A DNA stretch of 64,000 bases from an uncultured Lachnospiraceae bacterium (GTDB lineage Bacteria; Bacillota; Clostridia; Lachnospirales; Lachnospiraceae), in the NCBI GenBank assembly GCA_934320895.1, contig CAKRFY010000011.1, positions 20,308 to 84,307 on the forward strand, read 5' to 3'. Positions 5,393-54,520 of the stretch are shown one piece after another. A model generated the notes under the pieces. That model did no database searches and was not told the origin of the DNA. It was given only the letters and a program-made list of their open reading frames with translations. The stretch's first letter is position 1; every line of letters starts with the position of its first letter. The position numbers were made by a program, and so were the translations under genes.

Positions 5393-5421
5393 CATTGGAG
5401 GAGAAAAAGAGGCACGGGATT

Positions 5422-7287
5422 ATGAAGAAGAGAAGAATAAACTTTAGGAGGGCATGTTATTTCATGCTTATTCTTTCAGTTCTAAGTGGTATAGCAACAA
5501 TTTATTGTTTTGGGAGTGAAATGAAGGAAAGTGCTGTAAGTAATGCAAAAAAGATTGTAAACAGCAGTGCGTATGTAGGAAGGGCATATTTTGAGGAAAT
5601 TATCAGAGAAAGAGTATCGGGACTTGAAGTGCTTGCTGGGAGAATATCAAGCACCGATATAAGTGATAGACGTGAGGTTACATCTGCGTGTCAGAAACTG
5701 GAAAGATACTTTACAGATATTTCAATTGTTGATTTAAATGGTGTGAAGTTGTATGGCGACTGCAATAACAAAGAAATTTGTAAAAGTGATGGATTTGGAA
5801 TGGCACTGGCTGGAAAGTCAAATGTAGCCACTGAAGTTACGATGAATTATGCCGGAAATGATGAACTTTGCTTTTTTGTACCGATCATATCAGGCGGGAA
5901 AGTTCAGTATGTGCTTATTGGTTCAATGCTTATTGATGACATGAGCAATAAATTGTACAATTCAGGTCTGTCAAAAGAGGGATATGTTATCGTTTTGTCA
6001 AAGAATGGGGAAATTATTTCCGCAACGCGAACAGTATGTGATATAGGACTTGAATATGATACGAATTTTTTTTCATATCTGAACGAGAGTGGTGTATTTG
6101 ATGGCTTTGATAGTCAGAAAGTAAGAAGCATGATAAGGGATAATTTAGAAACGAATTTTCAGTTTAGACATAGTAAAAGAAATTATATAGTTACGACAAT
6201 TCCGACAACTGTAAACGGATGGTCATTTGTATATATATCAAAGGGAAGATACAGAAAAGCATCAGATATTGTACTTACAAGTAAGTGCATGAATTATCTC
6301 AGAGCATTATGCGTTGAACTTGTTGTTGTTATGATAATGCTTATATATGCCACAAAAAGCAGACAAAAGCTTATAAGGCTACAAAATACATATGATACAG
6401 TCAGCAAGATGGACAAAACGATAATATTTGAATATACATTTTCCCCAAAATGTTTTGAACTTAAGGATAAGTTTGGAATAATAGTAGATAAAAATATGAA
6501 ACCTTTTATGGGAGAAGCTGTGTATGATGTGTATGAGTATATTCATCCTGATGACTTGTCAATAAGGAGCAGGCTCAGAAAATTTTTTGAGAGTAAAGAA
6601 ACATTTTTCTCTTCTGAGGTCAGAGTAAAAAACAGAGCAGGTGATTATGACTGGTACAGAGTTTTAGGAGTACTTAATAGGGAGAAAAATGGTTCGCCAA
6701 AGCATTTTGTAGGTAAGATTACAGATGCTTCAAAACAGATAACTATGGAGAAAAATCTTGTACAGCGTGCTGAAAAAGATATGCTGACGGGTGTTCTCAA
6801 TAAAAAGACCATGGAGGAAAAGATCAGTGCTCTTCTGGCAGAGAACAAAGCTGATAGATATTACATATTTTATATGGTAGATCTGGACAACTTTAAAAAT
6901 GTAAATGACACACTGGGACATATATATGGAGATAAGGCAATTGCTGATACTGGTGCTGAACTTACAAAGATATTTAAGGATAGGGCACTTATAGGAAGAC
7001 TAGGCGGAGATGAATTTGCTGTCTGTTCCATCTATGATTCTTTTGATGAGGAAAGTTTGAAAAATTATATAATCAAGAAGGCTGAACAGATTAAAAACGC
7101 CAATAGGCGAAGCTATACAGACGGTGCAAATGTTGTAAATATAACAAGTAGTATAGGAATTTCTATTGCACCTATAGATGGAAGTGATTTTGAAACTGTA
7201 TATAAAAAAGCTGATTCTGCATTGTATAAGTCAAAAAAATCTGGCAAAGATCGTTATACTTTATTTAGTGGAGAGTTGTGGAAGTGA
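5422..7287 (+). CDS. Membrane diguanylate cyclase (Cache-like sensor, PAS, GGDEF)
   Basis: 621 residues. A membrane helix (~11-31), an extracellular Cache-like sensor (~32-285), a second helix (~290-308), a PAS fold (~330-435, ending in WYRV...GKITD) and a GGDEF domain (~450-615). The active loop reads RLGGDEF (GGDEF at residues 528-532), and DLDNFKNVNDTLGH carries the metal and GTP-binding residues, so it should make c-di-GMP from two GTP. The RxxD inhibitory site expected just upstream is absent (K and A at the R and D positions), suggesting no product feedback. The ATG at 5422 has AAGAGG at 9 nt; a TTG at 5395 would add nine residues but lacks a ribosome site. First gene of a three-gene c-di-GMP operon; its TGA overlaps the next ATG. 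Confidence 0.88.
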   Translation: MKKRRINFRRACYFMLILSVLSGIATIYCFGSEMKESAVSNAKKIVNSSAYVGRAYFEEIIRERVSGLEVLAGRISSTDISDRREVTSACQKLERYFTDISIVDLNGVKLYGDCNNKEICKSDGFGMALAGKSNVATEVTMNYAGNDELCFFVPIISGGKVQYVLIGSMLIDDMSNKLYNSGLSKEGYVIVLSKNGEIISATRTVCDIGLEYDTNFFSYLNESGVFDGFDSQKVRSMIRDNLETNFQFRHSKRNYIVTTIPTTVNGWSFVYISKGRYRKASDIVLTSKCMNYLRALCVELVVVMIMLIYATKSRQKLIRLQNTYDTVSKMDKTIIFEYTFSPKCFELKDKFGIIVDKNMKPFMGEAVYDVYEYIHPDDLSIRSRLRKFFESKETFFSSEVRVKNRAGDYDWYRVLGVLNREKNGSPKHFVGKITDASKQITMEKNLVQRAEKDMLTGVLNKKTMEEKISALLAENKADRYYIFYMVDLDNFKNVNDTLGHIYGDKAIADTGAELTKIFKDRALIGRLGGDEFAVCSIYDSFDEESLKNYIIKKAEQIKNANRRSYTDGANVVNITSSIGISIAPIDGSDFETVYKKADSALYKSKKSGKDRYTLFSGELWK

Positions 7288-9215
7288 TGATTAATTATGT
7301 GTGTGCTTATGAATTTGTAGCGTTATTTTTAATAGGACTTGTAACTTTTTTTTATCATTATAAAAACTGGCTTCCGTCATATAAAAACAGTTTTTTTATG
7401 TGGATACTCCATATACTGCTTTTAGTGATAGTACTTGATGTTATAAACAGAATGGGGACTTTAGAGATAATAAAGCTTTCTGATGCTGCAGTTTTTGTTA
7501 TGACTTTATTATCTTATATAGGGGTACTTATATCAGCAGTTCTTTTCTGGATATATTATCTGGCTCAGACACTAACACTTGATTATCTGAAGAGGAAGAT
7601 CTCGATCATTATGTATTTGCCAGCAATCGCAATGGCAGTAGTTGTTATAATGTCTGTAAATACAGAAAGCCTTTTTCTGGTTCAGAATGGCGAGGTGTTT
7701 TACAATGAGAGTGCATTGAGAATGTTTCCTATAGTGGTAATCTTTTATATTTTTGCTGGTGCATTTGCTCTTGGCAGAAATAGAAAGAATATTAATAGAA
7801 GACAGTATATGTTTATGCAGATTTCAAACATTGTGTTAGTATGTTTTGTTGAGCTATACTATGTACCAGAAAAAAGACTTATGCTTATCTATTATTGTGT
7901 AGCAGCACTTGTTATAATGTATTATCTTATAATACATAATGTTGATATGTATATTGTCAGTGCGAGTGGCTGCTTTTCAATGGCTGGATTTAAAGATGTC
8001 ATTGAGGAAAAAATTAAGTACAAAAAAAGCTTTTATTGTATTTCTGTTTGTGTAAGCAGTATGGAAAATATGTCAAACTACTGCCTTGAAGATGAAATAA
8101 ATCAGGTTCATGCCATGGTGGGAGATTATCTTAGAAAATATGGTGGCAGACACAATGTATATCATATACACAGCTCAGAATATATAATTATGGTAAAAAA
8201 GGAATCTGATGCGAATGATCTTTTTATCAGATTAAGGAGAGAACTTCCAAAAACGATAAGGATAAATGATAAAAATATAAGTATGTATTACAAATTTTAT
8301 ATTGCCGGAAATTCCGATGCAGTTTATACTTTGTCTGAATTTATGAGAATTCTTATAAGTATGAAAAAGATTGTAACACAGAACTCACTTGACAGGGAAA
8401 TCATTGTTTATACAGGAAGTATAAAGGAGCGAATAGAAAAGGAACTTGAAAATATAAGGGCTATAAGGACTATGTTAGAGTCTGATGAGTGTGAACTTGA
8501 ATGTATGCCTATATATGATATCAAAGAAAAGGATATAAATGAATTAGAGATAAATCCAGTGGTTAAAGTTGGTGACAGAAATCTTCCAATAGAAGATGTC
8601 TGGGAGGTTTCAAGAGAAATTGGGTGCAGCAGGGATACAAATATAATGTTTCTAAAAAGAATATTGCAGTTTGCAAATGAAGAAAAACTTTTTGAGAGGG
8701 GAATTAAACATGTAAGGGTAAATATGGCTGCTTTTCATATAATCAGTGAGTCAATTTGTGAAGAATATATGAGTTATATCAGCGAGTATAATATAAATCC
8801 GGATAATATCGTGTTTGAAATATTTGTTAATGCTGATGTTCCGGAAGATGTATTTGCAAGAGGGATAGCTTATCTTAGGAAAAAAGGGGTACATGTTTGC
8901 TGGGATCAGTTTGGGGTTAATGCATGTAATCTTAAGAGTCTTATGGAAATGCAGTTTGATGGTGTGAAAATAAATAATGCAGTTGTTGCGATGTATTGCA
9001 ATGAAAAAAGTATGCAGCTTATATATATAATCCGTATGTTCAGGGAAAGAGGATGGATAGTGTGCCTGGATGGGATAAGATATCCTGATGGTTTTAAAGT
9101 GGTTACAAAAATGGATGTTGATTATATTCAGGGAAAGGAACTTATGACATTTGTTCCAGAGGAGAAAATCAGAGAGTTCCTCTTAAAGAAGGGAGGAATC
9201 TTAGGTGATATATAA
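7287..9215 (+). CDS. Membrane protein with degenerate GGDEF and EAL domains (probably inactive)
   Basis: 642 residues from the ATG overlapping the cyclase stop (TGATG); GTG codons at 7278 and 7284 are alternatives. About seven hydrophobic helices fill residues 1-215, a GGDEF-like fold without the motif follows (~225-390), then an EAL fold (~400-640). The EAL catalytic signatures are broken: no ExL with its usual context, VFEIFVNAD replaces the E-x-T-E motif, WDQFGVNACNLKSL replaces DDFGTGYSSL, and CLDGIRY replaces AEGVET. The final DYIQGKEL survives, so the fold is probably kept. It is therefore likely a c-di-GMP receptor or a regulator of its neighbours rather than an enzyme. Translationally coupled on both sides. 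Confidence 0.75.
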   Translation: MINYVCAYEFVALFLIGLVTFFYHYKNWLPSYKNSFFMWILHILLLVIVLDVINRMGTLEIIKLSDAAVFVMTLLSYIGVLISAVLFWIYYLAQTLTLDYLKRKISIIMYLPAIAMAVVVIMSVNTESLFLVQNGEVFYNESALRMFPIVVIFYIFAGAFALGRNRKNINRRQYMFMQISNIVLVCFVELYYVPEKRLMLIYYCVAALVIMYYLIIHNVDMYIVSASGCFSMAGFKDVIEEKIKYKKSFYCISVCVSSMENMSNYCLEDEINQVHAMVGDYLRKYGGRHNVYHIHSSEYIIMVKKESDANDLFIRLRRELPKTIRINDKNISMYYKFYIAGNSDAVYTLSEFMRILISMKKIVTQNSLDREIIVYTGSIKERIEKELENIRAIRTMLESDECELECMPIYDIKEKDINELEINPVVKVGDRNLPIEDVWEVSREIGCSRDTNIMFLKRILQFANEEKLFERGIKHVRVNMAAFHIISESICEEYMSYISEYNINPDNIVFEIFVNADVPEDVFARGIAYLRKKGVHVCWDQFGVNACNLKSLMEMQFDGVKINNAVVAMYCNEKSMQLIYIIRMFRERGWIVCLDGIRYPDGFKVVTKMDVDYIQGKELMTFVPEEKIREFLLKKGGILGDI

Positions 9216-11124
9216 TGTACATTTTGAACTGGCTACGGCCGTGATGCTGTTTATTCTTATAATAATTTATTTTTGGAAAAAAAATCTGCCAGTGCAAAGC
9301 AACAGACTATACTTAAAGGTTCTTATACTACTCGTTGTTGGGACATGTCTTAGTGCTCTGCAGTGTTATTATGATTGTCAGAAAAATATAATGTCAGTGT
9401 CTGCGGTATATATTATTAATTCAGCAGCATTTATCGCAGGTATAATCTTTATTGCAATGTATAACAGTTATGTGTTGTCACTTTTTCATTATAAGAAAAA
9501 GATCAATTCTTATTATATAATAAGTTATGGTGTTATATTGTGTGGTATGATCCTGGTTTTAACAAGTCCGGTTACAAATTTATATTTTTATATGGATAAT
9601 TCAGGGCGGGTTCATTCAGGAAGTGCAAGGAGTGTTATGAACATGATGTATTTAGCTATTATGTTTGTAACATTGTGTGTGGCATGGATAAAAGGGCGCA
9701 GAAGGGATATAAAACTTTTGAAGCTGATTTTATATGTAGATATATTGATAGCACTTTCAGAGTTGATCGGAAAGCTAACAGGGATGAATAGTTCTATAAC
9801 TATGGTAGTTGCAAATCTGTGTGCTTTTATTGTATATTTTACACTGAGAAGTCCGGATTATTATATTGACATCAGAACAGGCAGATTTAATCTCAATGGT
9901 TTTATTGAAGTTCTTAGAGAAAAGTACGATTATAATGAGAGTGTGTCCTGCTTTTTGATAAGAGTAAAAAATTACCATGCCATATGCAGAATATATGATG
10001 AGGACAGTCTTCAGGAAGTTCAGAAGCAGATTGCGGAGATATTAAAATTTAAGTCAGGTGAAAGAAATATATATCATATTGGTGCTGCCACATTTGCCGT
10101 ATTTGTAGAAAATACAAAAGAGGCGAAAAAACTTTATGAGAAGATAGTAAAGGTTATGCCTTATCAGTGGAATATAAGAAGAGAGGCACTGTCACATGAA
10201 TATAGTTATTATTATGTTACATATCCTGACGATTCGTCTGATATTGAAGATATAATACAGCGTATTCATTATGCAAGATCAGATCATAAAGGTCATCATA
10301 AACCAAATGAACTGATTCATTTAAGAACAGAAGCACTTGCGGAGGCGATAAGATTTAAGGAAGTTGCACACAGGATAGAAGAGGCGATACTTGATAATTC
10401 ACTGGAATTAAATTTTCAGCCTATATATTCATTTGCAGAAAACAGGATAACTTCACTTGAGGTGCTTTCAAGACTTAAAGATGAAAATCATAAATATATA
10501 AATCCTGAGTATTTTATTCATGTTGCAGAGACAAATCATACGATAATACAGCTTAGCAGGCAAATGTTTGAAAAAACATGCCAGTTTGCAGTGAATAACA
10601 GGATATTTGAAAGAGGAATAACTGACATGAATATAAATATTTCACCTATTCAGTGTCAGGATGAACATCTTGTAGATGAATTAAAGCATATTGCAGCTAA
10701 ATACAGGATACCTCTAAAACGTTTTCATTTTGAGATAACTGAGAGCAGGCTTACAGATGCAGATGCTGTGTTTGAAACATTGACAAAGCTTAGAAAGTGT
10801 GGAGCAAAGATAGCACTTGATGATTTTGGAACAGGTTATTCCAATATTGCAAGTATTATGCTTATGCCTATAGATTTTGTGAAGATCGATAAAAGTCTTT
10901 TATGGTCATACGCAAGTGGCGATAATGAATTTTTAAATGAGCTTATGCCAATGATAAGGAGTGAGGGTAAAAAAATTATCGCTGAAGGTATAGAGACAAA
11001 AGAGCACATAGAGATACTTAGGAGAATGGGAGGAGATTTCCTTCAGGGATATTATTATTCAAAACCTTTGAATGAAAAGGATTTTGTAAGATTTATAGAT
11101 GACCAGAATAAAAGTAAAAAATAA
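9205..11124 (+). CDS. Membrane EAL-domain c-di-GMP phosphodiesterase
   Basis: 639 residues with the same plan as the preceding protein: about seven membrane helices (~1-210), a GGDEF-like region lacking the motif (~215-380), and an EAL domain (~390-635). Here the catalytic motifs are intact: SLEVLSRL (EVL variant), HFEITESRL, ALDDFGTGYSNIAS, VKIDKSLL, IAEGIETKEH and the terminal FLQGYYYSKPL. It should hydrolyse c-di-GMP to pGpG. The start is a GTG with GGGAGG at 8 nt, 11 bp inside the previous gene. The upstream paralogue probably arose by duplication and lost catalysis. Together with the cyclase the operon holds making, breaking and probably sensing of c-di-GMP. Confidence 0.88.
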   Translation: MIYNVHFELATAVMLFILIIIYFWKKNLPVQSNRLYLKVLILLVVGTCLSALQCYYDCQKNIMSVSAVYIINSAAFIAGIIFIAMYNSYVLSLFHYKKKINSYYIISYGVILCGMILVLTSPVTNLYFYMDNSGRVHSGSARSVMNMMYLAIMFVTLCVAWIKGRRRDIKLLKLILYVDILIALSELIGKLTGMNSSITMVVANLCAFIVYFTLRSPDYYIDIRTGRFNLNGFIEVLREKYDYNESVSCFLIRVKNYHAICRIYDEDSLQEVQKQIAEILKFKSGERNIYHIGAATFAVFVENTKEAKKLYEKIVKVMPYQWNIRREALSHEYSYYYVTYPDDSSDIEDIIQRIHYARSDHKGHHKPNELIHLRTEALAEAIRFKEVAHRIEEAILDNSLELNFQPIYSFAENRITSLEVLSRLKDENHKYINPEYFIHVAETNHTIIQLSRQMFEKTCQFAVNNRIFERGITDMNINISPIQCQDEHLVDELKHIAAKYRIPLKRFHFEITESRLTDADAVFETLTKLRKCGAKIALDDFGTGYSNIASIMLMPIDFVKIDKSLLWSYASGDNEFLNELMPMIRSEGKKIIAEGIETKEHIEILRRMGGDFLQGYYYSKPLNEKDFVRFIDDQNKSKK

Positions 11125-19981: not shown

Positions 19982-21595
19982 TTATTTGTTGTCTTCCTGA
20001 TATTTAAGTGCCGCACCGACAAATCCTTTAAATAAAGGATGTGGTCTGTTTGGTCTTGATTTAAATTCAGGATGAGCCTGTGTAGCGATAAACCAAGGAT
20101 GAGTTGGAATTTCACACATTTCAACAATTCTACCGTCAGGGGAAAGTCCAGAAAGAAGAAGTCCTGCTTTTTCAAGGTCTTCACGGTAATAATTGTTTAC
20201 CTCATAGCGGTGTCTATGTCTCTCATGGATAGTCTCTTCTCCGTAAAGCTCATAAGCTTTTGAGTTTTTATTAAGTACGCAAGGATAAGAACCAAGTCTT
20301 AAAGTACCACCGATATCCTCGATGCCATCCTGCTCAGGCATAAGGTGGATAACAGGATGTGTAGTCTGAGGATCAAGTTCGATGCTGTGTGCATCGTGGA
20401 ATCCTACAACATGTCTTGCAAACTCAACGATAGCAAGCTGCATTCCAAGACAGAGGCCAAGGAATGGGATATTGTTTTCTCTTGCATATTTGATAGCGAC
20501 TATTTTACCATCAATTCCTCTGTCACCGAATCCTCCGGGAACTAAGATTCCACTTACATCACCGAGAAGTTCAGACGCATTGTCCTCAGTTAATTCTTCT
20601 GATGGTATCCATTTGATGTTGACATTGCTCTTATGGGCAAGTCCGCCATGTTTTAATGACTCGACAACACTGATGTATGCATCATGAAGTGAAGTATATT
20701 TGCCTACAAGGGCAACTGTTACATCTTTATCAAGATTTTTAAGTGTGTCGACCATATTCTGCCACTCAGTTATGTCAGGTTCTGGGCAGTCAAGACCAAG
20801 TTTTTCGCAGACAACATCTGCAAGATGTTCTTTTTCCATAGCAAGAGGTGCTTCGTAAAGTGTTTCAACATCAAGGTTCTGTAAAACACTCTTTGTAGGA
20901 ACATTACAAAAGAGTGCAATCTTATCTTTAAGACCTTCTTCAAGAGGGAGCTCAGTACGGCATACGATAACATCAGGCTGGATACCCATTCCCTGAAGTT
21001 CCTTAACACTTGCCTGTGTAGGCTTTGTCTTCATTTCTCCAGATGCTTTAAGATAAGGTATCAATGTTACATGGATAAGAATTGCATTGTCATGTCCGAT
21101 ATCATGCTGGAACTGGCGGATAGACTCAAGGAAAGGCTGGCTTTCGATATCGCCCACAGTACCTCCTACTTCTATGATAGCTATCTGTGTGTCTTTGCAT
21201 CCGTCATTGCGGTAAAAACGACTCTTTATCTCATTAGTGATATGAGGGATTACCTGAACTGTACCTCCGCCATAATCTCCACGACGTTCTTTGTTCAGAA
21301 CTGACCAGTAAACCTTACCTGTTGTTACATTTGACTGTTTTGTAAGGCTTTCATCGATAAAACGCTCATAATGTCCAAGATCAAGATCTGTCTCAGCTCC
21401 ATCATCTGTTACGAAAACCTCACCATGCTGCACCGGGTTCATAGTACCTGGGTCAATATTGATATATGGATCGAACTTCTGCATTGTTACACTGTATCCG
21501 CGCATTTTAAGCAATCTGCCTAAAGATGCTGCTGTGATACCTTTTCCAAGACCGGAAACAACGCCACCAGTTACAAATACATATTTGACTGCCAT
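19982..21595 (-). CDS. pyrG: CTP synthase
   Basis: 537 residues, the normal length. N-terminal synthase domain: [20 protein letters not shown] (P-loop), [11 protein letters not shown]-terminal glutamine amidotransferase: PGGFGDRG, the catalytic Cys in [12 protein letters not shown], and His/Glu in AHPEFKSRP. It makes CTP from UTP, ATP and glutamine in the cytoplasm. A good AAGGAGGAT site precedes the ATG. The leader begins with no G-C run of the kind used for pyrG reiterative attenuation in Bacillus. Confidence 0.97.
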
Positions 21596-21860: not shown

Positions 21861-21972
21861 GATACGGATAGAACGATGATGCGGAGGATATTTACTTGTT
21901 ATATAGGCATACATTAAAAAGTGGATAAAAATGCGGATATATCGTAATAATAAAAATGAGGAGGTCTTGCAG

Positions 21973-24789
21973 ATGGAAAATAATAATAACCAGGATCCGA
22001 AAAAAAATCAAAATAGAAAAAGTGTAGTAATTTGTTTAGTTGTGGCATTAGTAATCTTTCTTATGTTCTCATTTATGAACAGTCAGGTAGAGAAAGCTTC
22101 AAATAAAGAAATAACATATGACCAGTTCTTAAACATGTTAGATAATGGTCAGGTGTCAAAAGTAGTCATAACATCAGATGAGATTAAGATAACACCATCT
22201 CAGCAGGCAAATAACATTTATAAAGTCACATATTATACAGGTGTTATCTCAATGGATTACAACCTTATAAACAGACTTGAAAAAGCAAATGTTGAATTTT
22301 CAAAAGAAGTTTCATCAGGTTCATCAAGTCTTATGTACATGCTGATAACAACATTTTTACCTATATTATTGTTATGGGGTGGTCTTTTCTTTGTTGTACG
22401 TATGATGTCAAAAAATTCAGGTGGAATGATGGGCGTAGGAAAGAGTACTGCAAAGATGTATGTCCAGAAAGCAACAGGAGTTACATTTAAGGATGTTGCA
22501 GGACAGGAGGAGGCTATGGAGTCGCTGAATGAACTTGTAGATTTCCTCAATAATCCGGGAAAATATACCGAGATAGGTGCAAAACTTCCTAAAGGAGCAC
22601 TTCTTGTAGGACCTCCGGGAACAGGTAAGACGCTTCTTGCAAAGGCGGTTGCAGGTGAGGCAGGAGTTCCATTTTTCTCACTTTCAGGTTCAGACTTTGT
22701 GGAAATGTTTGTCGGTGTCGGTGCATCAAGAGTAAGAGATCTTTTTAAGCAGGCACAGTCTATGGCACCATGTATTATTTTTATTGATGAGATAGATGCA
22801 ATAGGTAAAAGCAGAGACAGCCAGTATGGCGGTGGAAATGACGAGAGGGAGCAGACACTTAACCAGCTCCTTTCAGAGATGGATGGTTTTGATTCATCAA
22901 AAGGTCTTGTAATACTTGGTGCGACAAACAGACCTGAGGTACTTGACAAGGCACTTCTTCGTCCAGGACGTTTTGACAGAAGGATAATTGTTGAAAAACC
23001 TGACCTTAAAGGTCGTGTTGATATACTTAAAGTACATGCAAAAGATGTGCTTATGGATGATTCAGTTGACTTTGATGCTATTGCACTGGCAACAAGTGGT
23101 GCGGTAGGTTCAGACCTTGCAAACATGATAAACGAGGGCGCGATAATGGCAGTACGTGCCGGAAGAAAAGCTGTAAGTCAGGCAGATCTTTTTGAGGCTG
23201 TGGAGGTGGTTATCGCAGGTAAGGAAAAGAAGGACAGGATCTTAGGAAAAGAAGAAAAGAGAATAGTTGCTTACCATGAGGTAGGTCATGCACTTGTAAC
23301 GGCATTGCAGAAAAATGCAGAGCCAGTACAAAAGATCACTATCGTTCCAAGAACAATGGGGTCTTTAGGATATGTTATGCAGGTGCCGGAAGAAGAAAAA
23401 TATCTTATGAGTAAAGAAGAGATACTTACAAGGATAGTTACACTGTTTGGTGGCCGTGCTGCTGAGCAGATAGTGTTTAATTCTATTACGACGGGTGCTT
23501 CAAATGATATCGAGAAAGCTACATCTCTTGCCAGAGCTATGGTTACGCAGTACGGAATGACAGACAAGTTTGGAATGATAGGACTTGAATCTGTGCAAAA
23601 TAAATATCTTGATGGAAGAACTGTATTAAACTGCGGTGATGCGACTGAGGCAGAGATTGACCAGGAAGTTATGCGTATTCTTAAAGAGTGTTATGTAAAA
23701 GCAGAGGAGCTCTTAAGAGGTGACAGATCGGCGCTTGATAAACTTGCAGAATTTCTTATCGAGCATGAGACAATTACAGGTAAAGAGTTTATGAAGATAT
23801 TCCGCAAGGTAAAAGGAATAGAGGAGCCGGAGGGAGACCTTTATGATGCCATAGTCATAGATGTTGATGGAACTTTACTTGATTCTGAAAAACAGATAGG
23901 TGAAAAGACAGTCAATGCTATTATTGATGCACAAAAGAGGGGCAAAAAAGTTGCTATTGCATCAGGACGTTCTATAGCAGGAATAAGAAAAAATGCTGCT
24001 AAGATACAGCTCGAAAAGTATGGTGGATATGTCATTGCCTACAATGGAACTACAGTTGTAAACTGTAAGACGGGTGAGTGTATCTATAATCAGATGGTTC
24101 CGGGTGAGATTTTAGGACAGGTATATAATGAGGCGGTTAAGGAAGACGTTTCGATTGCAGTTTATAATGATGTATCTAAAGAACTTATTGCCGGAAACGG
24201 AGTGAATAAATATGTTGAACTTGATGCTGTTGCATGTGATGTTACGGTAAGAGAGGTAAATGATTTTGTTAAATCTGTGAACTTTGGATTTAATAAGATA
24301 CTTTTAAGTGGTGAACCTGATAACATGAAAACGGTTGAGAAGCATATGGCTGAAATGTTTGGTGACAAGGTAAATGTGTTCCGTTCAGATCCTCATTTTG
24401 TGGAGCTTCTTCCTAAATATGTTGACAAGGGAGTTGCCGCTGAGAAACTTATGCGTTATCTTGATATAAACAGAGAAAAAGTTATATGTATAGGTGACAG
24501 CATGAATGATATGCCTATGCTTAGATATGCTGGAATGGGTGTTGCTATGGGCAATGCACAGGAAAAGATAAAACAGTCCGCAGATTATGTTACACTTTCA
24601 AATAATGAAGATGGAGTTGCCAATGTTATAGAGAAGTTTATGAAGCCTGCTTCAGAGAAAAAACAGCCAGAAGCAGATAGTGTTGCAAATGAGGAAACCT
24701 CAAATAAGGCAATCCAACTGTCAAAGGAAACAACAGAAAAAGCTGACGAAGAAATCAATATTCAGGATGATGTTTACAAAGATGAGTGA
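21973..24789 (+). CDS. ftsH: FtsH protease fused in frame to a Cof-type HAD phosphatase
   Basis: 938 residues; ordinary FtsH has 600-650. Residues ~1-610 are a full FtsH: two membrane helices (~20-37 and ~115-140) around a small external domain, Walker A GPPGTGKT, Walker B IIFIDEID, the arginine-finger region (RPGRFDRR) and the zinc site HEVGH at 435-439. The membrane protease degrades misfolded and regulatory proteins. From ~625 a complete HAD domain follows: DVDGT at 630-634 (nucleophile Asp), ASGRS, a Cof-type cap, a Lys in the PKYVDKGVA stretch, and [11 protein letters not shown] charged tail (~895-938) ends the protein. The reading frame is unbroken across the junction. GAGGAGG lies 8 nt before the chosen ATG; an upstream ATG at 21931 would add 14 residues. 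It is followed by a terminator. Confidence 0.92.
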
Positions 24790-24860: not shown

Positions 24861-26735
24861 ATGTTTGATATACAGGAAGAATTAAGAAAACTGCCTGCCA
24901 AGCCAGGTGTTTATCTGATGCATGATAAAAGTGATGCTATCATATATGTTGGAAAAGCGATAAGTCTTAAAAATAGAGTAAGACAGTATTTTCAAGCAGG
25001 ACGAAGGGTTTCACCAAAGATTGAAAAAATGATATCCCAGATAGATCATTTTGAGTATATAATCACAGATTCAGAAGTTGAGGCTCTTGTACTTGAGAAC
25101 AATCTTATAAAAGAGCATGAGCCTAAATATAACACAATGCTTAAGGATGATAAGACATATCCTTATATAAAAGCGACAGTCTATGAAGATTTTCCAAGAC
25201 TTATATATTCAAGACAGCAGAAAAAAGACAGGTGTAGATACTTTGGTCCATTTACAAATGTGACAGCAGCGAGGGATACACTTGAGTTTGCGCATAAGAT
25301 TTATAAGATAAGGACTTGCAGGAGAGTGCTTCCAAGAGATACTGGAAAGGAAAGACCATGCCTTAATTACCATATAGGCAAATGCAGTGCGCCATGTCAG
25401 GGATATATAAGCAAAGAGGAATATGCACAAAACTTCAATAAGGCATTAAAGCTCATAGAGGGGGATTATAAACAGGTTATAGAATATCTTGAAGAAAAAA
25501 TGTATGATGCATCTGATAAGATGGAGTATGAACAGGCCGCTGGATACAGAGATCTTATTGCAAGTGTGAAAAAGATGTCTGTAAAACAGAAAATAAATGA
25601 TTTTGGTGGGATGGACAGGGATGTTGTTGCACTTGCAAGAACAAATGAAGAGGCAGTTGTACAGGTTTTCTTTATAAGAGAGGGAAAACTTATTGGAAGG
25701 GATCATTTTCATCTGAAAGGAAGCTATGGAGAAAAAGAAAATGATATGCTTCAGGCATTTATTAAACAATTTTATGCCGGAACACCTTTTATTCCTCGCG
25801 AAGTCATGGTAGAATATGAAATAGCGGAATACAAGCTGATAGAAGAATGGCTCAGTGAAAAAAGAGGCGGTAAAGTCAGTATAATTGTTCCTAAAAAGGG
25901 GCAGAAGGAGAGACTTGTCGAGCTTGCACACAAAAATGCAGCCATGGTTCTTACAAAAGATATGGAAAAGATAAAACTTGAGGAAAAACGCACGACAGGA
26001 GCGATGAGGCAGATATGCGGATGGCTCGGTCTTAGAGATATATCCCGTGTGGAATCTTATGACATATCAAATATAAGCGGTTTTCAGTCGGTAGGTTCAA
26101 TGGTCGTGTTTGATGATGGTAAACCTAAAAAAAGTGATTATAGAAAATTCAGGATAAAAACTGTTGAGGGGCCAAATGATTATGCGAGTATGTATGAGGT
26201 GCTTAAACGTAGATTCAGTCATGGACTTTCGGAAATGAAACAGCTGGATGATAAAAATCTTTCAGCCGAATTTGGCAGTTTTACAAAATTTCCGGATCTT
26301 ATCATGATGGATGGCGGTGTCGGACAGGTCCATACAGCCATGAAGGTTCTTTCGGAGTTAAATATAGACATTCCAGTGTGTGGAATGATAAAAGATGATA
26401 ATCACAGAACGAGGGGTCTGTTTTTTGATGAACATGAGATTTTGATAGATACAAATAGTGAGGGCTTTCGTCTTATGACAAGGATACAGGATGAGGTACA
26501 TCGTTTCGCTATAGAGTATCATCGTTCACTTAGAAGTAAAGAACAGGTCAGGTCTATTCTTGATGATATAGATGGAATCGGAGAGAAGAGGCGCAAGGCA
26601 CTTATGAAACATTTTGTTTCTATAGATGCCATAAAGGATGCGTCAATTGATGAACTGGCTGTAGTTGACAGTATGAATGAGAAAGCGGCTGAAAGCGTTT
26701 ACAAATTTTTTCATCAAGGAGGAGAAAAGGAATGA
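24861..26735 (+). CDS. uvrC: Excinuclease ABC subunit C
   Basis: 624 residues. GIY-YIG nuclease at the N-terminus (KPGVYLMHD...[14 protein letters not shown]), the UvrB-interacting UVR motif (~200-240, rich in D-K-M-E-Y-E-Q-A), an RNase H-like endonuclease domain ([32 protein letters not shown]) and a C-terminal HhH pair ([15 protein letters not shown]). It incises both sides of a lesion in nucleotide excision repair. The best RBS (GGGAGGG) is 16 nt from the ATG, a loose spacing. Its stop overlaps the hprK start (ATGA). Confidence 0.96.
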
Positions 26736-27749: not shown

Positions 27750-28874
27750 ATGTTATTTGTAAAAACAGAAGACTTGAAACCGGGAATGAGGCTTGCTAAG
27801 CCTATATATAATAAGAATGGTGTAATGCTTTATGAACGTAATTCTAAGATTACAAGTCAGGGAATCATAAGTGTAGAAAATTTTGGGCTGATAGGGATAT
27901 ATGTACTTGAGCCGGCTGAACCTGTTCCACCAATGTCTGAGGATGATATTGAGTTTGAGAGATTTCAGACAATGTCTATATTTATGATAAGGGAGATACT
28001 TGATGCATATTCAAATGAAGAAAAAGATGATAATATGTATCAATTTATAAATCAGCTGTTGAAAAAGTATGGTTCACTTCATCATAAAATTAATTTTATA
28101 CAAAATCTGAGAAGTAATGATGATTATGTTTATAAACATTCTCTCAATACGGCAATATTATGTGCGCTCATTTCAAATAAACTTGGTCTTGACTTTAAGA
28201 GTCAGTTAGATCTTGTTGCAGCAGCGCTGCTGCATGATATAGGAGGACTTTCTATACCTGCACAGTTGAGAAAAAAGAAAACAGAAGAACTTATGGCTGA
28301 TGAGGGGAGAAAGATAGTATTATCATATCAGAGTTCATGGCAGGCATTAAAGAACAATTCTGATCTTTCGCCTGATATAAGACGATTACTTACAGTTTTG
28401 ATACCGATACTTCATCCTGATATGCCGGGGGCGCCTAATAAAGTTTCGGAGATACTTAGTGTGGAGATACTTAAGGTTGCATATTATTTTGACAATATGA
28501 CAGCCATGAAATTTGGTGCTGAACCTTTGTCAGAAATAGCTGCGGTAAGGTATCTTATAGATCATACAGATGAGTTTGACAAAAAGGTTGTTGATGCTCT
28601 TCTTAATAGTGTAAATATATTAAGTCCCGGAGTATGTGTTGAGTTTACAAATGGTGACAAAGGTCTTGTTGTTACTGCAAATGAAAGTAATGTACTTGAG
28701 CCATTTGTACTGTCATTTAAGGATAATAGATTATACAACCTTGGTGACAGTGCAGTTGCACGCAGCATGCAGATAAAAGATATTATGAAGACTATGGATA
28801 ACCGGCATGTAGTTGATAGTAATCTGCTTCAGCAGTATACAGGAAATACATTACATATGGGTGAGAAAATCTAA
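27750..28874 (+). CDS. HD-domain phosphohydrolase related to HD-GYP proteins but lacking GYP
   Basis: 374 residues. The first ~60 residues (LKPGMRLAKPIYNKNGVMLY) are the short N-terminal module common before HD-GYP domains. Residues ~125-285 carry an HD domain: YKHSLNTAIL supplies the first His and LLHDIGGLSIP the HD pair. The region where HD-GYP proteins have HHE..G.GYP is instead ILHPDMPGAPNK, so the GYP motif is absent. A c-di-GMP phosphodiesterase role is possible but doubtful; it may be a different HD phosphatase or a binding protein. It has its own RBS (GGAGGG) 44 bp after hprK. Confidence 0.7.
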   Translation: MLFVKTEDLKPGMRLAKPIYNKNGVMLYERNSKITSQGIISVENFGLIGIYVLEPAEPVPPMSEDDIEFERFQTMSIFMIREILDAYSNEEKDDNMYQFINQLLKKYGSLHHKINFIQNLRSNDDYVYKHSLNTAILCALISNKLGLDFKSQLDLVAAALLHDIGGLSIPAQLRKKKTEELMADEGRKIVLSYQSSWQALKNNSDLSPDIRRLLTVLIPILHPDMPGAPNKVSEILSVEILKVAYYFDNMTAMKFGAEPLSEIAAVRYLIDHTDEFDKKVVDALLNSVNILSPGVCVEFTNGDKGLVVTANESNVLEPFVLSFKDNRLYNLGDSAVARSMQIKDIMKTMDNRHVVDSNLLQQYTGNTLHMGEKI

Positions 28875-51707: not shown

Positions 51708-51748
51708 CTTGCTATGCATAAAAAACGTGTGCAGAAATGAGGATTTTT

Positions 51749-54520
51749 ATGTTTGAGTTAAACGAGAGAAATTATGCTAAAGCAGCTAGACAGGCTGTTG
51801 CTGAGGGATGTGTACTGCTTAAAAATGATCGAGGTGTTCTGCCTCTTAAAAAAGGAACGAAAGCAGCAGTTTTTGGAATAGGAGCTTTCTACTATTATAA
51901 GGGTGGACTTGGTTCTGGCGGTCTTGTGAATACAAAATATGTTGTAAGTATTCTTGACGCATTGAGAAAAAGTGAAGATATTAATGTCGATGAGTATATT
52001 TGTGAGGAATATGAGAAATGGATAAAGGAAAATCCTTTTGACGAGGGTAATGGCTGGGGAAGTGTTCCATGGTCACAAAAAGAAATGCCTTTATCAAAGG
52101 AATTTATCTGTGAAACGGAGAAAAGAAATGATACTGCCATTGTCATTATTGGAAGAACAGCTGGTGAGGATCAGGATAATAAGGCTGATGAGGGCAGTTA
52201 TTATCTGACACAGACGGAGAGAGAGCTTATCAAAAATGTTACGGAGACATTTGAAAAAAGCATTGTTCTTTTAAATGTTGGAAATATAATTGATATGAAA
52301 TGGGTAGATGATTATAAACCTTCTGCTGTTATGTATGTATGGCAGGGTGGTCAGGAAGGCGGAAATGGTGTTCTTGATGTGCTTAATGGAGCTGTAAGTC
52401 CTAGTGGAAAACTTACAGACACGATCGCCTATAATATAGAAGATTATCCGTCAGCACCTTATTTTGGGGATGCCGACAAGAATTATTATGTGGAAGATAT
52501 ATATGTAGGTTACAAATATTTCCAGACTACTGCCAGAGATAGGGTTATGTATCCTTTTGGTTTTGGTATGTCATACACAGACTTTGCTATAACTGGAAGT
52601 GTAAAAAATGTTGATGATACATGTGTGGTTGTTGATACAAGTGTAAAAAATATAGGTGATTGTTCAGGAAAAGAGGTTGTTCAGGTTTATGTTGAAGCCC
52701 CTCAGGCAAAACTTGGAAAGCCTGTTCGCACTTTTGTGGGATATGCAAAGACAAAAGAGCTGGCAGTTTCAGAAAGCCAGAAACTTGCTATCACATGCCC
52801 TAAATCGTATTTTGCATCATATGATGATTCAGGTGTGACAGGCCATAAGTCTGCATTTGTTCTTGAAGAGGGAGAGTATAAAGTATATGTGGGAAACAGT
52901 GTAGATGCAGCTGAATTTGCAGGAAGTTTTTCCCAGAAATTTCAGGTAATAGAACAGCTTGAGGAAGCACTTGCACCAGTAGAGGAATTTGAGAGGATGC
53001 ATCCTGTAGCAGAGGATTGTGAAAAGCATCAGAAAGATTTTTGTACATTTAAGATGGGATTTGAGAAAGTTCCACTTAGAACAATAAAACTTTCGGACAG
53101 AATTGAAAGTGAGATGCCACAGGATATTGCATTTACAGGTGATGAGGGATATACACTTAAGGATGTAGCAGAGGATAAAATTGATATTGATACATTTATA
53201 GGTCAGCTTTCAGATGAAGACCTTATGTGTCTTATGAGGGGTGAGGGCATGTGCAGTATGAAAGTGACTCCTGGAACTGCTGCTGCCTTTGGTGGTCTTA
53301 CACCTTCACTTGACAGATTCGGGATTCCTGTACTTTGTTGTGCTGATGGGCCTTCAGGAATCAGAATGGATTGTGGAACTAAGGCTTTTTTACTTCCTAT
53401 AGGAACTTTGCTTGGCGCAACATTTAATAATGAGCTTATTGAGGAACTTTTTGAGTACTTTGGTGCAGAGATGAAGTATAATCGTATTGATACTATTTTG
53501 GGACCGGGCATGAATATACATAGACATCCTTTAAATGGAAGAAATTATGAGTATATTTCAGAGGATACGATCCTTACCGGAAAAATATGTGCCGCTGAGC
53601 TTAAGGGACTTCACAGAGCAGGTGTGGAGGGAACGATAAAACATTTTTGTGCAAATAACCAGGAGTTTAGACGTGCAGATGCAATGGGAGTTATCTCAGA
53701 GAGAGCACTTAGGGAAATCTATCTTAAGTGTTTTGAGATTGCCATAAAAGAGACAGGCTGCAGTTCTGTAATGACTACATATGGACCATTTAATGGACTT
53801 TGGACATCGGGAAATTATGATCTTTGTACAACAGTGCTTAGAAAAGAATGGGGATTTGATGGCATTGTTATGACTGACTGGTGGGCTGTTGCAAACTGGG
53901 AAGGAGAAAAGCAGGATAGAAAGAACAGAGCAGCGATGGTTCAGGCTCAGAATGATATATTTATGGTATGCCCTGACACAGAAAATGAAAATTTCATTGA
54001 TAATATAAAAGCACAGTACACGATAGGAAAGATAACAAGGGGACAGCTTCAGAGAAATGCGAAGAACATACTTAAATTTGCACTTAACAGCTTTGCAATG
54101 CAGATAAAACTTGGAAAAGTCGATATGGAAGAATATGCACCTGAATGGGATACAAGCTACAGACCAGAGGGAGAACTTGAGGCAGTTATAGCAAACGATG
54201 GAGCCTTTGTTGTATCAGATAAATTAGCACTAAAAATACTTGAGGATGATGGAATGTATTTTAATGCAGTGGATGCAGAAAAAGGAAATTACAGTGTGAC
54301 GATAAACATCACATCACAGCACAATGAGTATACACAGATACCTATATCAGTGTTTGTTGATAATGATTATCGTGGAACGATTTCATTCCAGGGTACAAAT
54401 GGAAAAGAAGATGAGAAAGCTATGCCTATTGGAAAGCTTGAAGCCGGTCAGCATTATATAAGGGTGGCTTACAGACCGCATGGCATAACAATGAACAGGT
54501 TTGTCATTGACAGAAAATAG
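51749..54520 (+). CDS. Beta-glucosidase-type GH3 enzyme with permuted domain order
   Basis: 923 residues. The domain that normally comes second (GH3_C-like) comes first (QAVAEGCVLLKNDRGVLPL, residues ~5-290), followed by an Ig/fibronectin-like domain (~300-410) and then the TIM-barrel (GH3_N-like, ~470-800) with the nucleophile Asp at residue 710 in GIVMTDWWA and PSLDRFGIPVLCCADGPSG before it. This order is known from rumen Clostridia such as Ruminococcus and Butyrivibrio beta-glucosidases. No signal peptide, so it probably acts on imported oligosaccharides in the cytoplasm. The start ATG follows GAGGAT by 5 nt; a preceding ATG at 51737 overlaps this site. A strong terminator follows. Confidence 0.88.
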   Translation: MFELNERNYAKAARQAVAEGCVLLKNDRGVLPLKKGTKAAVFGIGAFYYYKGGLGSGGLVNTKYVVSILDALRKSEDINVDEYICEEYEKWIKENPFDEGNGWGSVPWSQKEMPLSKEFICETEKRNDTAIVIIGRTAGEDQDNKADEGSYYLTQTERELIKNVTETFEKSIVLLNVGNIIDMKWVDDYKPSAVMYVWQGGQEGGNGVLDVLNGAVSPSGKLTDTIAYNIEDYPSAPYFGDADKNYYVEDIYVGYKYFQTTARDRVMYPFGFGMSYTDFAITGSVKNVDDTCVVVDTSVKNIGDCSGKEVVQVYVEAPQAKLGKPVRTFVGYAKTKELAVSESQKLAITCPKSYFASYDDSGVTGHKSAFVLEEGEYKVYVGNSVDAAEFAGSFSQKFQVIEQLEEALAPVEEFERMHPVAEDCEKHQKDFCTFKMGFEKVPLRTIKLSDRIESEMPQDIAFTGDEGYTLKDVAEDKIDIDTFIGQLSDEDLMCLMRGEGMCSMKVTPGTAAAFGGLTPSLDRFGIPVLCCADGPSGIRMDCGTKAFLLPIGTLLGATFNNELIEELFEYFGAEMKYNRIDTILGPGMNIHRHPLNGRNYEYISEDTILTGKICAAELKGLHRAGVEGTIKHFCANNQEFRRADAMGVISERALREIYLKCFEIAIKETGCSSVMTTYGPFNGLWTSGNYDLCTTVLRKEWGFDGIVMTDWWAVANWEGEKQDRKNRAAMVQAQNDIFMVCPDTENENFIDNIKAQYTIGKITRGQLQRNAKNILKFALNSFAMQIKLGKVDMEEYAPEWDTSYRPEGELEAVIANDGAFVVSDKLALKILEDDGMYFNAVDAEKGNYSVTINITSQHNEYTQIPISVFVDNDYRGTISFQGTNGKEDEKAMPIGKLEAGQHYIRVAYRPHGITMNRFVIDRK

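Follow-up and report, generated by a model that had tools for sequence, protein, structure and literature searches.

The fused gene and its domains

The stretch analyzed here, referred to as the window, comprises 64,000 nucleotides of an uncultured Lachnospiraceae bacterium (GenBank assembly GCA_934320895.1, contig CAKRFY010000011.1, positions 20,308 to 84,307 of the forward strand). On its plus strand, positions 21973–24789 hold one open reading frame of 938 codons plus stop, without an internal stop, in which a complete FtsH membrane protease is followed by a complete Cof-type HAD phosphatase. Almost all bacteria have FtsH, generally as a protein of its own. An earlier note, made from the sequence alone, had recognized two whole enzymes in this uninterrupted frame and a charged tail behind them. 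The former is confirmed by translation, by Pfam and NCBIfam, and by recurrence of the frame in 27 of 28 and four of four genomes of two genera, and the tail is indeed charged. The features of the gene are listed with their source in brackets:

21958–21964, plus strand: GAGGAGG, Shine-Dalgarno-like, before ATG 21973 (sequence)
21973–24789, plus strand: ftsH-HAD fused gene, 938 codons plus stop, predicted mass 103.2 kDa (translation, Pfam, NCBIfam)
22027–22308, plus strand: FtsH_ext, residues 19–112; hydrophobic segments at about 13–40 and 116–146 (Pfam, hydropathy)
22600–22995, plus strand: AAA ATPase, residues 210–341 (Pfam, motifs)
23239–23799, plus strand: M41 zinc protease, residues 423–609 (Pfam, motifs)
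23815–23844, plus strand: joint, residues 615–624 (alignment of fused frames)
23851–24630, plus strand: Cof-type C2B-cap HAD phosphatase, residues 627–886 (Pfam, motifs, structure comparison)
24643–24786, plus strand: acidic non-conserved tail, residues 891–938, net charge -7, low model confidence (sequence, model)

A longer mechanical open reading frame starts at 21931, where, unlike at ATG 21973, no ribosome-binding site was discerned. Pfam assigns to the fused protein, in order, FtsH_ext (19–112), AAA (210–341), AAA_lid_3 (364–406), Peptidase_M41 (423–609) and Hydrolase_3 (627–886), and the whole chain passes the curated NCBIfam cut-offs both for FtsH (TIGR01241, 767.9 bits against 600) and for Cof (TIGR00099, 200.9 bits against 137). 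Its FtsH part carries GPPGTGKT at 213 (Walker A), FIDEID at 270 (Walker B), RPGRFDR at 330, HEVGH at 435–439 and SND at 510–512; RPGRFDR marks the arginine-finger region, HEVGH is the HExxH motif, and SND provides the downstream Asp ligand. A simple hydropathy scan gives two peaks in the N-terminal part (19-residue windows starting at 13–22 and 116–128), in agreement with the two membrane segments expected of an FtsH. In the HAD part, a core with a C2B-type cap, the residues D630, D632, S664, K819, D842 and D846 are present. The positions D630/D632, S/T664, K819 and D842/D846, the catalytic motifs I–IV of HAD, are kept in all 27 fused proteins compared.

The fused protein resembles FtsH (TIGR01241; solved relatives 7tdo, 2ce7, 3kds) in its complete FtsH_ext, AAA, lid and M41 domains with intact catalytic motifs, but differs in being an accessory copy and in its approximately 310 extra C-terminal residues, which make up the whole phosphatase. 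The HAD part, in turn, shares the full core, the cap and all catalytic motifs with Cof-type HAD-IIB proteins (TIGR00099; Bacteroides thetaiotaomicron 4dwo/3niw, Escherichia coli YidA 1rkq, BT4131 1ymq, PfHAD1 4qjb). Unlike these, it does not stand alone, the fused protein does not reach the threshold set for the YidA-type equivalog PRK10513 (175.7 against 273 bits), and it has the clade-specific residues T693, T694, C703 and D806. Source names of relatives, where given, read just “FtsH” and thereby hide the second enzyme. No description of an FtsH-HAD fusion was found in the open-licence full text of PubMed Central, a scope outside which most subscription papers lie, and none is given in the accessible parts of PMC12843639, PMC7159879 and PMC8112672; in the accessible part of the last, a Cof-type HAD figures merely as a silent single-nucleotide polymorphism in a suppressor table.

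Distribution of the fusion

Both M41 and PF08282 appear in the precomputed Pfam lists of 120 out of 120 relatives (the best 120 of 7977 scored). A scan of genome contigs gave 44 loci, namely 25 fused genes, three pairs of separate ftsH and HAD neighbors (L027, L031, L038), 15 loci with ftsH only, meaning no HAD match within the fetched stretch, and one cut-off fragment (L044). The fusion is present in 27 of the 28 genomes that the tool groups into the genus of Butyribacter intestini, G818 having an unfused FtsH only. The first look at these genomes had yielded 26 long matches through the HAD part and a contig-cut match in G817 (residues 400–904), with stop codons listed inside nine of the long matches. 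Among these is G007, whose locus L010 has an uninterrupted fused frame that runs for 899 codons up to its own end. The sequences of G817 and of the remaining eight showed the fusion in every case, and each has its stop behind the HAD part. The fusion also occurs in four of four genomes of G214’s genus and, as G247 is fused and lies outside both genus lists, presumably in at least three genera.

Among 396 Lachnospiraceae genomes drawn evenly, five full-length fused frames were found among the matches listed (G001, G169, G214, G247, G383), and the searches with the whole protein and with the HAD part both rank these same five at the top. The HAD survey of the family used E ≤ 1e-45 and at most six candidates per genome, so that far-diverged or independent fusions may escape it. 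A separate HAD gene adjoins ftsH in at least nine of the 396 genomes (G030, G051, G090, G099, G148, G235, G240, G340, G368). In a survey of 398 genomes of the phylum, 29 have a match at E ≤ 1e-200, and G001 alone is fused. The fusion is thus rare across Lachnospiraceae yet nearly universal in two genera, and the earlier suggestion that it could be common in the family does not hold.

Of 2499 candidates in a large protein set, 288, with lengths of 516–1641 residues, resemble the HAD part at E ≤ 1e-40, an upper figure for close members and not a count of verified fusions; the best 120 of the 288 all carry M41. FtsH-HAD fusions may have arisen independently in other phyla. Among 207 plasmid records with matches at E ≤ 1e-100, not one has a single region that spans 80% of the query. 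Spread by plasmids was considered and rejected, the copy on a Lachnospira eligens plasmid being an unfused FtsH.

Further extended frames were encountered in the surveys. FtsH matches lie in frames of 865–1058 codons for which no HAD match is listed (G155:C5, G374:C21, G325:C1, G310:C31), which may carry other C- or N-terminal extensions, and a HAD match at G252:C106:25024-25806 lies in a frame of 485 codons, perhaps another HAD fusion or extension.

The pyrG/uvrC locus and the second FtsH

The fused gene is flanked by a divergent pyrG and by uvrC. Beyond uvrC, the window continues with hprK, a gene for an HD-domain protein, pth and a gene encoding mfd-type domains. The immediate neighbors are:

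19982–21595, minus strand: pyrG (CTP synthase, identified by eye in the translated sequence), divergent upstream neighbor, in the same place in many related loci
24861–26735, plus strand: uvrC, next downstream gene after a gap of 71 nt (locus comparison)

The HD-domain protein (27750–28874, plus strand), encoded between hprK and the gene for peptidyl-tRNA hydrolase, recurs in several related loci.

A second, unfused FtsH is present in 30 of 31 fused genomes (26/27 in the Butyribacter intestini genus, 4/4 in the G214 genus), with no second FtsH match in the fused genome G814; the eight genomes first examined contain two or three M41 matches each. In three genomes (L095–L097) the second FtsH has 631–636 residues and lies downstream of genes resembling those for hypoxanthine phosphoribosyltransferase (hpt) and TilS, both named by eye. 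The hpt/tilS neighborhood is the usual place of ftsH in Bacillota. As the second, unfused FtsH of these three genomes sits in this usual place and the fused gene in the pyrG/uvrC locus, the fused protein is the accessory FtsH of Lachnospiraceae, that is, the copy of the pyrG/uvrC locus. With the unfused FtsH found in genomes of its genus it shares 43–52% identity. Pseudomonas aeruginosa clone C also has an FtsH in addition to its core FtsH, described as horizontally acquired (PMC10850787). Both proteins are accessory to a core FtsH, but the accessible part of that source describes no phosphatase fusion.

Origin of the fusion

The HAD gene is separate in 12 related loci, where it lies within 1 kb downstream of the same-locus ftsH and is followed by uvrC in 10 of the 12 (not seen at L067 and L094). 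The separate genes overlap or touch at L027, L031, L038, L066, L086 and L093, so that few changes could fuse them. In the tree, HAD genes next to ftsH are scattered among those without this linkage, which indicates that the linkage of ftsH and HAD was lost or gained several times.

In trees built by a quick method and supported by the Shimodaira-Hasegawa-like approximate likelihood ratio test (SH-aLRT) without bootstrap, 27 fused rows fall on one side of a branch both for FtsH (72 rows, SH-aLRT 97) and for HAD (55 rows, SH-aLRT 99). That the fused forms make up one clade, as they do in most trees, is well supported. Together with the separate, often overlapping neighbors in 12 relatives, this suggests that there was probably one fusion of neighboring genes, in the ancestor of the fused clade.

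Three unfused FtsH proteins of the same group (L036, L037, L068) have long C-terminal extensions, reaching 718–835 residues in total; those of L036 and L037 are proline-rich at the end.

The joint, the lost start and the tail

All 30 fused frames compared span 30 residues from TITG to the HAD motif DxDGT, and so do nine of nine further stretches, which are partly repeats of the same species. At the joint, the fused proteins stay close to VKG(I/L)EEPEGDxYD and run directly into the first HAD strand; unfused FtsH proteins of the group mostly have a VKG(I/L)P-like end followed by a variable acidic tail. The joint, predicted to be coil, is conserved in length and sequence far more than the tail of the fused protein.

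The place of the old HAD start, deduced from unfused relatives whose beginnings vary by a few residues, holds an N, L, H, R or F codon in 30 of 30 fused frames and thus never one that could start translation. All 30 also lack in-frame ATG, GTG and TTG in the interval between six codons before it and two codons after it, and Shine-Dalgarno cores nearby are as frequent as in a null obtained by synonymous resampling. The lost start codon and the null-level Shine-Dalgarno cores rule out separate translation of the HAD part as a conserved feature. Start codons three or four codons inside the HAD part occur 13 times and a TTG seven codons before it in a few frames (e.g., L009), and individual fused genes may occasionally use an internal HAD start.

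Behind the HAD domain, the fused proteins have a tail of median 14 residues (range 5–82), net negative in 23 of 27, whereas unfused HAD proteins stop 0–5 residues past the same point (27 measurable). Of 45 unfused FtsH tails, 44 have a net negative charge. With acidic ends in FtsH and nearly tailless unfused HAD proteins, the fused protein thus again ends in an acidic, FtsH-like C-terminus.

Selection and clade-specific residues

Among nine close pairs, the ratio of nonsynonymous to synonymous substitution rates (dN/dS) is 0.03–0.08 for the HAD part in the seven computable pairs and 0.00–0.09 for the FtsH part where computable; for the tail it is 0.34–1.45 in seven of the nine. The low values in both parts imply that both enzymes are kept. 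At 20 HAD positions, including T693, T694, C703, D806 and S843, the residue is invariant in 27 fused proteins and is a minority state in 28 unfused relatives. These clade-specific residues may reflect a shifted substrate or plain descent. Thirteen FtsH positions separate the fused clade from 40 unfused rows, and several of these positions belong to the joint or to the membrane part.

Proposed function and alternative explanations

The reading that we consider likely is that the FtsH of the pyrG/uvrC locus, fused probably once to the downstream Cof-type HAD, serves as a bifunctional membrane tether in which both enzymes are active and present in fixed 1:1 amounts. Judging from the FtsH family, the protein would assemble into a membrane-anchored hexamer bearing up to six HAD domains on its cytosolic side, each attached directly behind the final helix of the protease. 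The FtsH part would degrade proteins at the expense of ATP, and the HAD part would hydrolyze small phosphorylated metabolites, with sugar phosphates as the best guess from the nearest solved relatives. The phosphatase would thereby be made at the membrane in a fixed 1:1 amount with the protease. The two enzymes of the earlier note, truly fused in frame, also appear to be active to judge by their intact motifs.

Several results weigh against this reading. A more careful HAD tree, rooted with two very distant outgroup rows, splits the fused forms, requiring two changes and uniting them in 11% of 200 bootstrap replicates; we attribute this to the distant root, but it remains a weakness. The placement of the domains predicted by AlphaFold lacks confidence, with a predicted template modeling score (pTM) of 0.43 for the whole protein and 0.63 for M41 plus HAD. 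Furthermore, the neighbors of unlinked HAD relatives (ksgA, metA and ligA, trpS and others; 10 proteins, four loci) provide no metabolic hint.

A tentative alternative agrees with the bifunctional tether in all but the benefit. Overlapping genes would have been fused by loss of a stop codon, after which the HAD start was lost and the change became irreversible; both enzymes would work, and their joining would give no advantage. It explains most of the data as well, being favored by the overlapping or touching genes of several relatives and by the limited occurrence of the ftsH-HAD linkage, which much of the family does not share. The exception is perhaps the constant joint, since such a one-way ratchet does not require a fixed length and the length of unconstrained linkers usually varies in evolution, like that of the tail.

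That same joint, invariant in length and far better conserved than the tail, together with the 20 HAD positions particular to the fused proteins, could also be read as the mark of a metabolite-gated protease, in which the HAD domain binds or hydrolyzes a phosphorylated metabolite, e.g., a sugar, and so alters the rate or substrate choice of the FtsH hexamer. We regard this as unlikely, given that no confident docked arrangement of M41 and HAD is predicted, that just 13 FtsH positions distinguish the fused clade, and that clade-specific residues also arise through plain descent along one stem. The constant joint length and the intact active site fit such coupling, which the earlier note had put forward together with a possible control of FtsH hexamers by the phosphatase, but they also fit a plain tether or a one-way ratchet. 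If gating were nevertheless true, a second FtsH with a HAD domain at a fixed distance on each subunit would set the rate or targets of membrane proteolysis by a phosphorylated sugar.

It is rather improbable that FtsH itself or another protease cleaves the fused chain once it has been made, leaving FtsH and HAD to act separately. E. coli FtsH trims its own C-terminus and the joint is predicted as coil, both of which would suit cutting, but the length and sequence of the joint are conserved, and those of the tail are not. An artefact, in which an assembly error or sequencing frameshift joined two genes, can be dismissed because the same fused frame recurs in independent genomes of at least two, and by inference three, genera.

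A clade with an intact metabolic enzyme fixed onto FtsH is a natural experiment on whether proteolysis at the membrane can be coupled to the levels of metabolites, and the shared locus in relatives links ftsH and cof, two genes without a known partnership.

Other features of the window

Two further features of the window lie apart from the fused gene. At 5395–11124 (plus strand), a GGDEF gene and two EAL-domain genes stand three in a row and overlap, forming a compact cyclic di-GMP cluster. At 51737–54520 (plus strand), a glycoside hydrolase family 3 protein is encoded in which the C-terminal domain precedes the N-terminal domain.
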